From Janthinobacterium sp. PC23-8 (lineage in GTDB: Bacteria > Pseudomonadota > Gammaproteobacteria > Burkholderiales > Burkholderiaceae_D), in contig NZ_NJGY01000001.1 of the NCBI RefSeq assembly GCF_002250505.1, positions 2,239,878 to 2,303,877 on the forward strand: DNA of 64,000 nt. The letters run 5' to 3'. Of the stretch, positions 53,252-59,269 are shown one piece after another (position 1 is the first letter of the stretch; the number at the start of each line of letters is the position of its first letter). The notes beneath the pieces are model-generated. The model saw only the letters and a list, made by a program, of their open reading frames with translations, was not told the DNA's origin and did not search any database. The position numbers and the translations under genes were made by a program.

Positions 53252-55273
53252 TCAGATATCGAGCGGATCGACTTCCAGCGACCATTTCACGCGCGTCTTC
53301 ATGGCGCGCAAGGCCGCCAGCCATTCTTTCAGGAAGGCCTGCAGCGCCGGGCGCGAGCTTGACTCCAGCAACAACTGGGCGCGGTCAACGTTGTAGACGC
53401 GCGTCATGCTCATCGGAATCGGATCGTTGAGGGTAATCGCCGGATGCGCCATGCAGTCCTTGGCCGCCTGCAGAAATTCGATGGCGCTCGCCAGTTCCGG
53501 CGCTTCGGCGCGCAGCAGCGCCTGAAACAGATACGGTGGCAGTGCCGCCTGCGCTCGCTCTTCGAGCAAGGTGGTGGCGAAATGGTCGTAATCGTGGCTG
53601 ACCACGGCGTCATACAGCGGATGGCGCGCATAGCGGGTCTGGATCAGCACTTCGGAAACGCTGCCGCCCTCGGTCTGCGCGGCCCGCCCGGCCCGGCCCG
53701 CCACCTGCATCAGCTGGGCGAACAGGCGCTCGCTGGCGCGGTAGTCCTGCGAAAACAGCGCCGTGTCCGGGTTCAGGATACCGACCAGGGTGAGCTTTTT
53801 GAAGTCATGGCCCTTGGCCACCATCTGCGTGCCGATCAGGATATCGACTTCGCCGCGGTGCACGGTGTCGAACGCTTGCTGCGCGCTGCCCTTCTTGCGC
53901 GTGGAATCGGCATCGATGCGCAGGATGCGCGCCTCGGGAAACAGTTGCTGCAAGCCCTCTTCCACGCGCTGCGTGCCGCGGCCCAGCGGCTGCAGATCGA
54001 CATTGCCGCAGGTTGGGCAATGGCGCGGGATGCGCAATTCCAGGCTGCAATGGTGGCAGCGCAGCCGGTGCTCGGGTTTGTGCAGCACCATAAACGAGGT
54101 GCAACGGGTGCAGTTGCTGATCCAGCCGCACGATTCGCAGCAGATCACCGGCGAATAGCCGCGCCGGTTCAAGAACAGCAGCGACTGCTCGCCGCGTTCC
54201 ATGCGCAGTTTCAATGCCGCCACCAGATGCGACGTCAGCCCATCCTTCGGCTTGTCGCGCTCCATGTCGAGCAGTTTGACGCGCGGCAAGACGGCGTTTT
54301 TCACGGCGCGCTCGCGCAACTCGAGCTTGCGGTAGCGCCCCGTCTGCGCGTGGTGCCAGCTTTCCAGCGAGGGCGTGGCCGAACCGAGCACGATGGGAAT
54401 CTGCAACTGCCAGGCGCGCCAGACGGCCAGGTCGCGCGCCGAATAGCGCAAGCCTTCCTGCTGCTTGTAGGAAGGATCGTGCTCCTCGTCGATGACGATC
54501 AGTTTCAGGTTCGGCAAGGACGCCAGGATGGCCAGCCGCGTGCCCAGCACGATGCGCGCCTGGCCCTGGTGGGCGGCAAGCCAGTGCAGCATGCGCTCGC
54601 CCTCGGACAGGCTGCTGTGCAAGGTGGCCAGCATGACGCCGGGAAAGCGGGCGCGGATATTGCCTTCCAGCTGGGGCGTGAGGTTGATTTCCGGCACCAG
54701 GATCAGGATCTGCGCCGCTTGCTCGCGCGCCAGCACCCGGGCGCAGGCCTGCAGATAGACTTCGGTCTTGCCGCTGCCGGTCACGCCGTACAACAAGGTC
54801 GGCTTGAAGCCTTGCGCGCCGCCGATGGCGTCCACCGCTTCCTGCTGTGCAGGGTTCAGCGGCGGCATGTTCAGCGGCGTGCCGTCATGCGCCTCCTTCA
54901 GCTTGGCCAGCTTCTTGATGGCGCGGTCGAGCGCCACCGTGGTCAGCACGCGCAGGTTTTTAGGCAAGCCCGGCAGCGCCACTTCGCCCAGCGGACGCTG
55001 GTAATAATCGGCGGCGAACGCGGCCAGCGCCAGCCATTGCCCGGACAAGGGCGTCAGCTGGCTGCGCACGGCCAGCACATCTTTCATTTTCGCATCGGGC
55101 ACCTCGGTGCTGTCGGCCACGCCGACGATCAGGCCCATCACTTCGCGCCGGCCGAACGGCACCAGCGCCAGCTGGCCGATCTGCGGCAGGGACGCGTCGT
55201 CGCTGCGCCAGCGATAGTCGAACAGGGTGTCGAGGGGAGTATCGAGCGCGATTTTCAGAATGCACTGCGCCAT
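53252..55273 (-). CDS. priA: primosomal protein N' (replication restart helicase)
   Basis: A 673-residue 3'-5' helicase that recognises abandoned forks and reloads DnaB. 3' DNA-binding domain at the N-terminus, Walker A GVTGSGKTEVYLQ (about residue 165), DEEHDPSYKQQEG, GSATPSLESW, the zinc-binding region with CCESCGWISNCTRC...CHHCSLE...CPTCG, and the C-terminal motifs DILIGTQMVAKGHDF and QVAGRAGR. Length and domains are complete. The 800-base space upstream holds the DnaA-box modules. Confidence 0.97.
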   Translation of the reverse strand: MAQCILKIALDTPLDTLFDYRWRSDDASLPQIGQLALVPFGRREVMGLIVGVADSTEVPDAKMKDVLAVRSQLTPLSGQWLALAAFAADYYQRPLGEVALPGLPKNLRVLTTVALDRAIKKLAKLKEAHDGTPLNMPPLNPAQQEAVDAIGGAQGFKPTLLYGVTGSGKTEVYLQACARVLAREQAAQILILVPEINLTPQLEGNIRARFPGVMLATLHSSLSEGERMLHWLAAHQGQARIVLGTRLAILASLPNLKLIVIDEEHDPSYKQQEGLRYSARDLAVWRAWQLQIPIVLGSATPSLESWHHAQTGRYRKLELRERAVKNAVLPRVKLLDMERDKPKDGLTSHLVAALKLRMERGEQSLLFLNRRGYSPVICCESCGWISNCTRCTSFMVLHKPEHRLRCHHCSLELRIPRHCPTCGNVDLQPLGRGTQRVEEGLQQLFPEARILRIDADSTRKKGSAQQAFDTVHRGEVDILIGTQMVAKGHDFKKLTLVGILNPDTALFSQDYRASERLFAQLMQVAGRAGRAAQTEGGSVSEVLIQTRYARHPLYDAVVSHDYDHFATTLLEERAQAALPPYLFQALLRAEAPELASAIEFLQAAKDCMAHPAITLNDPIPMSMTRVYNVDRAQLLLESSSRPALQAFLKEWLAALRAMKTRVKWSLEVDPLDI

Positions 55274-55380
55274 GGGTCTTGCCTATTCCAGGTTGATAAC
55301 AGGGTAACAGCGCGGCAGGCGCACCGCCGGCCATGATACTTGGTCTCGCCAGGAAAGCAGGGCCAGCCAGAAGATAATTC

Positions 55381-55553
55381 TGTGGATAACTTTGTGGACA
55401 AAGCAAAATTAACCGTCAAAATACGCAGTGCATACAATGCCAATCGCCGTCAAGAGCGCACGTTAAATAAATTAACCTTTTAAAATCAGCAACTTGAAAA
55501 GCAGCTGCCCGGCAGGGCCAAAATGGCAGGCTTAACTCGGCAGCTGTGCATAA
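55381..55553 (+). repeat. DnaA-box/IHF module, copy A
   Basis: DnaA boxes TGTGGATAA (55381-55389, perfect) and TGTGGACAA (55393-55401, one mismatch) are 12 bases apart start to start. An AT-rich stretch and an IHF-type site AATCAGCAACTTG (55484-55496) follow, then CCCGGCAGGG (55508-55517), then DnaA box TGTGCATAA (55545-55553, perfect to TTATNCACA). The order and spacing are repeated in copy B. Confidence 0.8.
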
Positions 55554-55778
55554 CTGAGCCATTTCGGCGCTTGTTTCTTGGCATTAATCACGGTCGCCAT
55601 GATATGCATCAACGCATTTCCCCCGAAATCGGCACACATGGATACACCGCCGGGCACGGCCGCATGTGGATCACGATGGCAAGTTAACACGGCTTCAATC
55701 ATCATGCGGTGCACCATGCATCTCAGGTAAAACCTGCACATCGCCGCTAAGTCCCGGTTAACAAAATGCTTTTCGTTT

Positions 55779-55976
55779 TTATCCACAGAATCTGTTGATA
55801 ACTTTGTGGACAATGAAGGAATAACGGCGTCTGCAGGACGAACAACCTTGGCCGATATGCCGGCACGGTTTACCACGCCGCATATTAATCTATTTAAAAT
55901 CAATGACTTGCAATATCCTCCCGGGCAGGGATTTATCACTGCCTGTTATTTCCGCAGTAAAAAAAATTGTGCATAA
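55779..55976 (+). repeat. DnaA-box/IHF module, copy B
   Basis: DnaA box TTATCCACA (55779-55787, perfect, opposite orientation), TGTTGATAA (55793-55801, one mismatch), TGTGGACAA (55805-55813), IHF-type site AATCAATGACTTG (55898-55910, exact to WATCAANNNNTTR), CCCGGGCAGGG (55920-55930), and DnaA box TGTGCATAA (55968-55976, perfect). Same order as copy A; distances differ by only 2-10 bases. Confidence 0.8.
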
Positions 55977-56004
55977 GTCGGTTTTCATGCAGTGGTGGCG
56001 CCAA

Positions 56005-56040
56005 CAAAAAAGGCAGGCTTCCTGTGGAAAACCTGCCTTT
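56005..56040 (-). terminator. hemE terminator
   Basis: AAAGGCAGG, a 14-base loop, CCTGCCTTT; the run of A before it gives a T run on the minus strand, 35 bases after the hemE stop. Confidence 0.85.
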
Positions 56041-56074
56041 GCGGTGCCGGCGACAGGCGCTGGCGGGCGACTAG

Positions 56075-57160
56075 TCAGCGGCCGGCGCGCATGGCGCGGC
56101 TCTGGCTGTGCACGGCTTCCACCATGGCCCCCACCGATTCAGGCGGCGTGAACTGGGAAATGCCATGACCGAGGTTGAATACGTGGCCCGTGCCTTCGGA
56201 CGGCGCGCCAAAGGCGTTCAACACCTTGCTCACTTCGGCGCGGATCTGGTCCGGGCTGGCGAACAGGATGGCCGGGTCCAGGTTGCCCTGCAAGCCGACT
56301 TTATGGCCCACCAGCTGGCGCGCGCGCGCCAGGTTGACGGTCCAGTCCAGGCCGACGGCGTCGGCGCCGATATCGGCGATCTGCTCGATCCACTGGCCGC
56401 CGCCCTTGGTAAAGACGATGGCGGGAATCTGCACGCCATCCTTGTCGCGTTTCAGCTGCGCCACTACCTGCCGCATGTAAGCGAGCGAGAATTCCTGATA
56501 GGCGCCATCGGCCAGCGCACCGCCCCAGGAATCGAAAATCATCACCGCTTGCGCGCCGGCATCGATCTGCGCGTTCAGGTATTGCGCCACCGAGGTGGCG
56601 TTGATCGCCAGGATGTGGTGCATCAGCTCGGGGCGGTTGTACAGCATCTTCTTGATGGTGTGAAATTCTTTCGAGCCGCCGCCTTCCACCATATAGCAGG
56701 CCAGGGTCCACGGGCTGCCGGAAAAGCCGATCAGCGGCACGCGGCCATTGAGTTCGGTGCGGATCTGCGTGACGGCCTTGAAGACGTAGTCGAGCGATTC
56801 CAGGTCCGGCACTTGCAGCGCCATCACGTCCTGTTCGGTACGCAGCGGGCGCTCGAATTTCGGCCCTTCGCCATCGGCGAAATACAGGCCCAGGCCCATC
56901 GCATCGGGCACCGTCAGGATGTCGGAAAACAGGATCGCCGCGTCCAGTGGAAAGCGATCCAAAGGCTGCAGGGTCACTTCGGTGGCGTAATCGGGATTTT
57001 TTGCCAGGCCCAGGAAGGAGCCGGCCCGCTCGCGCGTGGCGCGGTATTCGGGCAGGTAGCGGCCGGCCTGGCGCATCAGCCAGACCGGCGTATGCTCGGT
57101 CGGCTGGCGCAGCAGGGCGCGCAAAAAGGTGTCGTTCTGGAGCGGAGCAAATTGTGGCAT
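56075..57160 (-). CDS. hemE: uroporphyrinogen decarboxylase
   Basis: A 361-residue enzyme that removes four carboxyl groups from uroporphyrinogen III to give coproporphyrinogen III in haem synthesis. Signature 1 [17 protein letters not shown] (near residue 25) and signature 2 [19 protein letters not shown] (near residue 145) are both intact, and [18 protein letters not shown] carries the catalytic Asp. The ATG at 57160 is used; the longest frame starts with TTG three codons earlier. It is divergent from the S9 peptidase gene. Confidence 0.97.
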
Positions 57161-57319
57161 GGCAGGCAATCTAGCTTGGGGGAAGCGGTATTATCGCATC
57201 CAATTGCCGCAAGTTCATTGATTCCGGTAACGCTTTGCAGCAATTGGCGCAGCTTGCGCGCTTCCTTTATGATGATGCACGCCTGGCGCCTGGCGCCCCA
57301 TCGAACCATGGAGTTCCGC

Positions 57320-59269
57320 ATGACATCGACCACCACCGCCCCTGTGATCCCCTATGGCGCCTGGCCCTCGCCCATCAGCGCCGCCATCGTCGCGGCCGGC
57401 GCCTCGCCGCTGGCGCAGCTGATGCTGGGCGGCGCCGATGGCGGCGATGTGTACTGGCTGGCTGGCAGGGCCAGCGAAGCGGGCCGCAACACCCTGCTGC
57501 GCCAGCGCGGCGCGCGCGTCGACGATGTCACGCCCGCGCCGTTCAATGTCCGCACCCGCGTGCATGAATATGGCGGCGGCGCCTGCGTCGTCGACGGCGA
57601 CACCGTGTATTTTTCGCATTTTGTCGATAACCGCCTGTACCGCATCGCGGGCGATGGCGTGGCAGAAGCGTTCAGTACCGGCAGCAATACGCGCTATGCC
57701 GACTTGGTGGTCGACCGCGCCCGCGCGCGCCTGATCACGGTGCGCGAACAGCATCCCGAACAAGGCCATGCCCATCCCGACAACCAGCTGGCGGCGGTCG
57801 GTTTCGACGGTAAGGAAACGGTATTGGCGCAGGGCCACGATTTCTATGCGGCGCCGCGCCTGTCGCCCAACGGCCGGCAGCTGGCGTGGCTCACCTGGGA
57901 CCATCCGCGCCTGCCGTGGCAGGGTACCGAGCTGTGGCTGGCCGAGGTGCGGGCCGACGGCGGCCTGGGCACGCCGCGCCTGGTGGCCGGCAGCGCGCAG
58001 GAATCGATTTGCCAGCCGGAATGGTCGCCTGCCGGCGTGCTGCACTTCGTGTCGGACCGCAGCGGCTGGTGGAATCTGTACCGCCTGCACGGCGGCAAGA
58101 TCGAAGCGCTGTGCCCGATGGAAGCCGAATTTGCCACGCCGCACTGGACCTTTGGCGGCAGCCTGTACGGTTTTGTGTCCGACGACGAACTCATTTGCAG
58201 TTATATCGTGCAGGGCGTAAGCCACCTGGGCCGGCTGACGGTGGGTGCGGCCAAACTGGAAGCCTTGCCGCACCCGTACCAGGAAATCCGCGAACTGCGC
58301 GTCGGTGCAGGCTTCGTCGCCCTGCTCGGCGGCAGCCCCACCATCGCGCTGGAGCTGGCGCGCATCGACCTGTCGAACAATGAGCTCGAAGTGCTGGCGC
58401 AATCGATTACCGGGCTGCCTGATCTGTCCTATCTGTCGGTGCCGCGCAGCATCAGCTACGCCTCCAGCGGCGGGCGCACGGCACATGCGTTTTTCTACCC
58501 GCCCACCAATGGCGATGTACAGGCCCCGGCCGATACCCTGCCGCCGGTGATCGTCATCAGCCATGGCGGCCCGACCAGCATGGCCAGCAATACCTTGAAG
58601 CTGGCGACGCAGTACTGGACCAGCCGCGGCATCGGCGTGCTCGACGTCAACTATGGCGGCAGCAGCGGCTTTGGACGCGCCTACCGCGATGCGCTGCGCG
58701 GCCAGTGGGGCGTCGTCGACGTGGAAGACTGCATTGCCGGCGCGCACTACCTGGTCGAGCAGGGCCTGGCCGATGGCGAGCGCCTGATCATTCGCGGCGG
58801 CAGCGCCGGCGGCCTGACCACCCTCTGTGCGCTGACGTTCCACGATGTGTTCAAGGCCGGCGCCAGCTATTACGGCGTTTCCGACCTGAAAGGGCTGGAC
58901 CTCGATTCGCACAAGTTCGAATCGCACTACAATGACTACCTGATCGCCCCGCAACCGCAGGCCGAAGCGCTGTACCGGGCGCGCTCGCCGATCCACCACA
59001 CCGACAAACTGGCGCGGCCGATGATTTTCTTCCAGGGCCTCGACGACAAGGTGGTGCCGCCGCAGCAGTCGCAACTGATGGTCGACGCCTTGAAGGCCAG
59101 CGGCGTGCCGGTCGCCTATGTGCCCCTGGAGGGAGAAGGCCACGGTTTTCGCAAGGCGGAAAACATTATCCGCACCCTGGAGGCAGAACTGTATTTTTAT
59201 CAGCGCGTCTTTCAGCTGGCCACGCCGCAAGGCGAGGCGCCGGTACGGATCGACAATCTGCCCGCCTGA
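57320..59269 (+). CDS. S9 family peptidase (prolyl oligopeptidase-like)
   Basis: A 649-residue serine peptidase of the acylaminoacyl-peptidase/prolyl-oligopeptidase group, with an N-terminal beta-propeller (about residues 40-370) that filters substrates and a C-terminal alpha/beta hydrolase. Catalytic Ser in RGGSAGGL, Asp in QGLDDKVVPP, His in GEGHGF; the oxyanion region is ISHGGPTSM. There is no signal peptide, so it is cytosolic. The ATG at 57320 has GGAG 6 bases upstream; the open frame extends much further up, but only as a shadow of hemE. Confidence 0.93.
   Translation: MTSTTTAPVIPYGAWPSPISAAIVAAGASPLAQLMLGGADGGDVYWLAGRASEAGRNTLLRQRGARVDDVTPAPFNVRTRVHEYGGGACVVDGDTVYFSHFVDNRLYRIAGDGVAEAFSTGSNTRYADLVVDRARARLITVREQHPEQGHAHPDNQLAAVGFDGKETVLAQGHDFYAAPRLSPNGRQLAWLTWDHPRLPWQGTELWLAEVRADGGLGTPRLVAGSAQESICQPEWSPAGVLHFVSDRSGWWNLYRLHGGKIEALCPMEAEFATPHWTFGGSLYGFVSDDELICSYIVQGVSHLGRLTVGAAKLEALPHPYQEIRELRVGAGFVALLGGSPTIALELARIDLSNNELEVLAQSITGLPDLSYLSVPRSISYASSGGRTAHAFFYPPTNGDVQAPADTLPPVIVISHGGPTSMASNTLKLATQYWTSRGIGVLDVNYGGSSGFGRAYRDALRGQWGVVDVEDCIAGAHYLVEQGLADGERLIIRGGSAGGLTTLCALTFHDVFKAGASYYGVSDLKGLDLDSHKFESHYNDYLIAPQPQAEALYRARSPIHHTDKLARPMIFFQGLDDKVVPPQQSQLMVDALKASGVPVAYVPLEGEGHGFRKAENIIRTLEAELYFYQRVFQLATPQGEAPVRIDNLPA

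Follow-up and report, generated by a model that had tools for sequence, protein, structure and literature searches.

A probable pair of tandem DARS-type elements between hemE and priA in Janthinobacterium sp. PC23-8

The hemE-priA gap

The window analysed here is a 64-kb stretch of the genome of Janthinobacterium sp. PC23-8 (C4:2239878-2303877 of its assembly, which comprises 6.39 Mb in 12 contigs). Between two minus-strand genes, hemE and priA, it contains a gap with DnaA boxes and IHF-type sites; the names of both flanking genes, given in a preliminary description of the sequence, are borne out by NCBIfam. The features, numbered from the first letter of the window, are:

53252..55273, minus strand: priA (NCBIfam name); module 1 lies directly upstream of the gene
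55367..55375, plus strand: expected place of box I in module 1; no box, 7 of 8 informative positions differ
55381..55389, minus strand: module 1 DnaA box II, TTATCCACA
55393..55401, minus strand: module 1 DnaA box III, TTGTCCACA, 1 mismatch
55484..55496, plus strand: module 1 IHF-type site, AATCAGCAACTTG, 1 mismatch, 107 bp from box II; consensus match only
55545..55553, minus strand: module 1 distal DnaA box, TTATGCACA, 57 bp from the IHF-type site
55779..55787, plus strand: module 2 DnaA box I, TTATCCACA, head-to-head with box II
55793..55801, minus strand: module 2 DnaA box II, TTATCAACA, 1 mismatch
55805..55813, minus strand: module 2 DnaA box III, TTGTCCACA, 1 mismatch
55898..55910, plus strand: module 2 IHF-type site, AATCAATGACTTG, 109 bp from box II; consensus match only
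55968..55976, minus strand: module 2 distal DnaA box, TTATGCACA, 66 bp from the IHF-type site
56009..56040, minus strand: terminator-like hairpin 3' of hemE, between hemE and the modules; pattern match
56075..57169, minus strand: hemE (NCBIfam name), upstream of module 2

Nine DnaA-box-like nonamers with 0 or 1 mismatch to TTATNCACA lie within 651 bases (55381-56031); the window as a whole has 26 such matches, against a shuffle mean of 22.7 over all 64 kb. Seven of the nine had been recognized before, and each is found where it was described, with at most one mismatch; the two extra ones nearby are at 55665 and 56023. The nonamer at 56023 is inside the hairpin 56009-56040, which contains the DnaA-box-like TTTTCCACA, and is for that reason left out of the module parts. 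The hairpin is the only one of its kind that a pattern search finds in the gap (shuffle mean 1.4), and an Rfam search of 54000-57500 matched 0 families.

Both modules also have the order attributed to them, a pair of boxes followed by an IHF-type site and a distal box. When boxes I, II and III and the IHF site are scored jointly, the gap has 2 mismatches, compared with 12 in the best of 200 shuffles of the gap. What the preliminary description overlooked is that the plus-strand box at 55779 faces the pair at 55793 and 55805 head-to-head, and this is the feature that identifies the element. One word that it put forward as conserved, CCCGG(G)CAGGG, has to be dropped from the parts of the module: it occurs in 2 of 113 related modules, both of them the window's own, and is thus no conserved part.

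Core geometry compared with Escherichia coli DARS1 and DARS2

In E. coli, according to the available text of PMC10380432, PMC5742627 and PMC4245941, box III helps, DARS2 needs IHF and Fis, and datA hydrolyses. Read from the MG1655 sequence, DARS1 (bioD-uvrB) and DARS2 (rppH-mutH) share a core with box I on the plus strand, box II on the minus strand at +14 and box III on the minus strand at +26. Module 2 has this three-box DARS core, with the same spacings of 14 and 12 bp and the same orientations; mismatches number 2 in 24 positions for DARS1 and 3 in 24 for DARS2. Module 1, having no box I, does not have the core and is therefore not filed as a full DARS. The gap as a whole probably contains two tandem DARS-type elements, which by analogy with E. 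coli would reactivate ADP-DnaA. The spacing itself is distinctive: across 81 priA-upstream gaps (80 PriA-homologous loci and the window) the 14/12 core is found with at most 4 mismatches in 24 positions in 46, other tested spacings are found in 0-17 gaps, and the best core among 2.0 million background positions has 5 mismatches.

The comparison extends beyond the core. As in DARS2, the IHF-type sites of the window lie on the box III side at a fixed distance from box II (107 and 109 bp; consensus matches only), although this distance is 99 bp in DARS2, by our own assignment of IBS2, and 107-111 bp in the modules. DARS2 requires its Fis sites in E. coli, as stated in the available text of PMC4245941, whereas the counterparts of FBS2-3 are missing here: no exact Fis consensus occurs in 55301-56060, and over the 113 modules the consensus is not enriched (17 sites, 19.7 in shuffles). 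DARS2 also differs in that its best distal box 40-100 bp past the IHF site has 3 mismatches, and in that it is not located at priA. In DARS1 the IHF-like stretch, at 111 bp, is degenerate, with 2 mismatches, and TTATCCCCA follows 98 bp further on. DARS1 is active in vitro in the absence of further factors, according to the available text of PMC5742627; the window's modules, in contrast, have a good IHF consensus and a perfect distal box.

Conservation of the module upstream of priA

The preliminary description had made its proposal depend on finding the boxes in the corresponding gaps of related genomes, and there they are conserved. With a module defined by at most 1 mismatch in the distal box, 3 in box III and 1 in box II, one or more modules are present in 78 of the 81 gaps and two or more in 34; L070, L071 and L072 have none. 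(This definition accepts the doubtful L073, which has no match to the sequence model R1 introduced below, and rejects L070 and L072, which match it in part.) Duplicated modules are found mainly in genera of the Oxalobacteraceae, judged by record titles. A strict pattern search recovered the arrangement in 46 of 300 genomes of the order, with 0 instances of the reversed control pattern among the matches listed.

The IHF-type site is held in place with some precision. Its consensus is matched without mismatch in 76 of the 113 modules, with 1 mismatch in 32 and with 2 in 5 (shuffled spacers yield 0 mismatches in 1.2% and 1 in 18%), and it lies 107-111 bp from box II in 108. The distance from the distal box to the IHF site is more variable and takes the values 55-57 bp (24 modules), 65-69 (55), 75-79 (28) and 88 (2), with 4 others, which is to say that it changes in steps of about 10-11 bp. 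The vector strength of the distal-box phase is 0.80 for a period of 10.5 bp (0.77 at 10 and 0.78 at 11) and 0.67 with each distance counted once, values that are no formal probability, since the module sequences are related. A passive titration site, merely lowering free DnaA, should not require conserved orientation, a conserved IHF distance or helical steps; it would account for the many close boxes, for their duplication and for another box array near the oriC-like cluster described below, and we consider it very unlikely.

Kinship and reach of the element

The sequence model R1, which uses no base pairs, derives from 41 priA-upstream modules, 39 from 35 of the 80 loci together with the window's two; its calibration was shortened, and its E-values are consequently rough. 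At these rough E-values the kinship to both E. coli elements is nonetheless apparent: in 20 kb of E. coli sequence R1 finds DARS1 with 27.6 bits (E 2.3e-8) and DARS2 with 26.1 bits (E 6.4e-8). It has no match at E. coli oriC (20 kb searched) and none in 8 kb around E. coli priA. Inside DARS2 there is a second match (L160 2452-2608; 22.9 bits, E 6.6e-7) whose box II is 316 bp from that of the first. This second stretch has a perfect box II and an IHF consensus (1 mismatch) 109 bp away, so that DARS2 likewise looks like a tandem pair.

The E. coli datA locus deserves separate consideration, since it also combines a close box pair with IHF and a further box on the same strand. A datA-like element would loop its boxes by way of IHF, promote ATP hydrolysis and lower ATP-DnaA, an effect on DnaA opposite to that of DARS. 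Its pair TTGTAAACA and TTATCCACA, 12 bp apart, is accompanied by an IHF site and by a same-strand box 162 bp on, and the pair matches R1 with 18.0 bits (a weak separate piece adds a match of 9.1); furthermore, the priA loci that have no box I retain precisely the distal box, the IHF site and boxes II and III. In datA, however, the IHF site stands between the pair, which comes first, and box 3, an order that is reversed in the window's modules; where box I would lie next to the pair, 4 mismatches are counted, and the matches of R1 to DARS1 and DARS2 are longer and higher in bits. An identification with datA is accordingly rated as unlikely. The preliminary description had left the choice between oriC, datA and DARS undecided: box geometry and the R1 matches favour DARS, the reversed order and the partial R1 match disfavour datA, and oriC is dealt with below.

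Searching 1.04 Mb around 80 priA genes, R1 has 121 matches at E <= 0.1, 112 of which, by our count, are on the priA strand inside priA-upstream gaps. The remainder are five weak minus-strand matches and four copies about 1.7 kb further upstream (L027 4051, L028 4094, L035 2216 and L037 4028, the first titled a Burkholderiales MAG and the other three Undibacterium), which presumably lie beyond hemE. Gap matches occur in 78 of the 80 loci, the exceptions being L071 and L073, and in 43 of the 45 loci that had contributed nothing to the model.

At E <= 0.01 R1 matches 255 of 274 genomes sampled from the GTDB class; in a sample of the phylum at the same threshold it matches, by our count, 49 of 51 class genomes and 102 of 149 outside the class, a count that places 29 unlisted matchless genomes outside and judges the outside matches by E-value alone, so that R1 E-values by themselves prove no class specificity. 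Forty class-wide modules, one per genome, were hand-picked as high scorers and are not a random sample (L240 runs into a contig end and has no core). Within this selection 39 modules have no more than 1 mismatch in box I, 39 have an exact box II and 38 an exact distal box; the IHF site shows 0 or 1 mismatch in 39 and is 109-112 bp away from box II in 35. At least two R1 matches at E <= 1e-5 are present in 37 of the 40 genomes. priA could be located in 39 of the 40 genomes; of these, 27 have an R1 match upstream of the gene and 12 have none there. Naming of neighbours by the longest ORF puts priA at 8 of 18 class loci tested (L213 left out), a procedure that misses wrong-strand cases such as G561, which is priA-linked by the HMM test.

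The linkage raises the question of whether the gap is a DnaA- and IHF-controlled promoter region of priA, with boxes that act on transcription and not on the nucleotide state of DnaA. All 27 linked modules have the orientation of priA, and for 26 of the 39 class genomes the distance from the end of the module to the priA HMM start, which is inside the gene, is 737-915 bp, placing the module near the start of the gene (the 27th is at 2475); the terminator-like hairpin after hemE would also suit a promoter. Yet the same module is found beside xseA and other genes, E. coli DARS1 and DARS2 precede uvrB and mutH, and box II starts anywhere from 18 to 921 bp before the PriA match start in the 80 PriA-homologous loci. 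The 2 promoter-like patterns in the gap (shuffle mean 1.0) are both on the strand opposite to priA. A role confined to the priA promoter is improbable on these grounds; such a role could coexist with that of a DARS.

Loss of box I

The head-to-head boxes I and II are essential in E. coli DARS according to the available text of a review (PMC10380432). Box I has at least 3 mismatches in every module of 31 of the 78 module-bearing gaps, and its absence there and in module 1 is evidence against the DARS reading; the unenriched Fis consensus and the R1 matches outside the class weigh on that side too. Seven genomes of the order with two separate copies were compared: box I has at least 3 mismatches in both copies of five (G094, G205, G235, G265 and G295) and is retained in one copy of the other two (G159 and G239).

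The question of the chromosomal origin

The gap was also suggested to be the chromosomal origin, and it does have DnaA boxes and IHF-type sites within a gene-free stretch. The complete genome of a relative, Janthinobacterium sp. LM6, whose PriA is 93% identical, speaks against this. In LM6, dnaA is at 1.1 kb, the hemE-priA gap at 113 kb and rsmG at 369.5 kb. The cumulative GC skew, read without a break over 680 kb (-160 to +520 kb) of the 6.29-Mb chromosome, drops past dnaA, stays on a plateau from about 80 to 190 kb and then drops again to its minimum at 353.5 kb; the gap sits on the plateau and not on a steep fall. In six additional single 20-kb stretches the sign is that expected for an origin near 355 kb in five and contrary in one (at 800 kb). 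Close to the minimum, at 354958-356062 (G001:C1) and about 240 kb from the gap, are three tandem units that have TTATCCACA boxes at either end; next to TTATCCACA every unit carries a TAGTAGTAATAGTAAAC-like stretch, which we take to be a DnaA-trio. This cluster at 354.96-356.06 kb is the putative oriC of LM6. A triplicated origin unit would, to our knowledge, be unusual.

The PC23-8 assembly has a similar oriC-like cluster at C4:2546630-2547665, with dnaA at C4:2146689. Its skew is flat; the minimum, over the 640 kb read, is at 2443.5 kb, away from the gap (2295 kb) and also about 100 kb off the oriC-like cluster (2546.6 kb), and this genome alone would not settle the matter. With the skew minimum and the triplicated cluster elsewhere in LM6, and with R1 passing over E. 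coli oriC, it is scarcely conceivable that the gap is the origin. The two closing guesses of the preliminary description thus part ways: a second DnaA-binding control locus is what the data favour, and the chromosomal origin is not.

Two smaller groups of boxes came to light in this part of LM6. At 341064-341352, about 14 kb from the oriC-like cluster, there are eight DnaA-box-like nonamers on the same strand, several of them 12 bp apart, which form a possible titration or datA-like array; its PC23-8 counterpart is at C4:2532.7-2533.4 kb. A smaller cluster at 330868-331140 has TTATGCACA and TTATCCACA on one strand, 185 bp apart.

Proposed mode of action and ancestry

Hda makes ADP-DnaA in E. 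coli. The PC23-8 genome encodes DnaA, Hda (C4:1842939, 210.6 bits), IHF-alpha (156.5 bits) and a Fis-like protein (40% identity over 77 residues). A second DnaA-domain match, on C7, was considered as Hda and rejected in favour of the gene at C4:1842939; its ORF resembles what we take to be an IstB-type ATPase of IS21.

If the DARS reading is right, ADP-DnaA would occupy boxes II and III as neighbours, and box I in a head-to-head arrangement with box II. This head-to-head contact would loosen ADP, and apo-DnaA would depart and take up ATP, raising ATP-DnaA for the next initiation. An IHF bend about 110 bp from box II would return the distal box, on a fixed helical face, to the core, where it may either stabilise the DnaA cluster or gate it in the cell cycle. 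Of the two modules, module 2 is the complete one, and reactivation of ADP-DnaA would most likely take place there, by analogy with E. coli; module 1 would more probably be an auxiliary copy, or one in decay, with the role of supporting module 2 or titrating DnaA.

A bolder proposal, which is slightly more apt to fail than to hold, concerns the ancestry of these elements. The ancestral DARS of the class would have been compact (about 215 bp), with four boxes, just upstream of priA, and with an IHF bend 110 bp from box II phasing the distal box; DARS1 and DARS2 would be its relocated, degenerate descendants, DARS2 hiding a second unit. Part of the beta lineages would have lost box I and kept the loop, in which case the central feature of the device may be the loop instead of the head-to-head contact.

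The occurrence of DARS beyond E. coli is already on record. The available text of PMC10380432, citing Fujimitsu 2009, mentions DARS-like sequences in many proteobacteria, and that of PMC5742627 mentions DARS in beta- and gamma-proteobacteria near E. coli. Among the literature matches listed, none places a DARS at priA by its title or the start of its abstract, and none, as far as the text given there extends, describes the loss of box I, the tandem form, or a fixed IHF distance together with a fourth box in phase; some of these loci may be listed in Fujimitsu 2009, Sugiyama 2019 and the supplements of PMC4245941. As far as the literature covered goes, the resetting of DnaA between rounds of replication has been worked out in E. 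coli. DARS that a model detects in the majority of the class genomes sampled provide testable sites in many species, and their conservation shows which parts evolution has kept: boxes II and III, the IHF site, the distal box and its phase. Loci that have no box I are natural variants. Through the frequent linkage to priA the initiation cycle becomes connected with a gene for replication restart, which raises the question of co-regulation.

Further copies in the PC23-8 genome

R1 has 37 matches at E <= 1 in the PC23-8 genome, five of which are strong modules (E < 1e-13): the two in the gap, two on C6 and one on C7. Those on C6 form a second tandem pair (G000:C6:415963-416171 and 416982-417180; L193 and L203), complete and with 1 mismatch in each box I, near an ORF that resembles a chromate transporter (below the family cut-off). 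The fifth module (G000:C7:161603-161751, L177) has 2 mismatches in box I and lies directly upstream of xseA on the opposite strand, with several of the weaker matches beside it; the linkage to xseA recurs in G239. Several copies are thus seen before DNA repair genes, in E. coli before uvrB and mutH and in this genome before priA. Six of the weak matches are equal in score (15.6 bits; G000:C4:72440, 222304, 660394, 1783589 and 2448096, and C8:252881) and probably represent one repeated mobile element.
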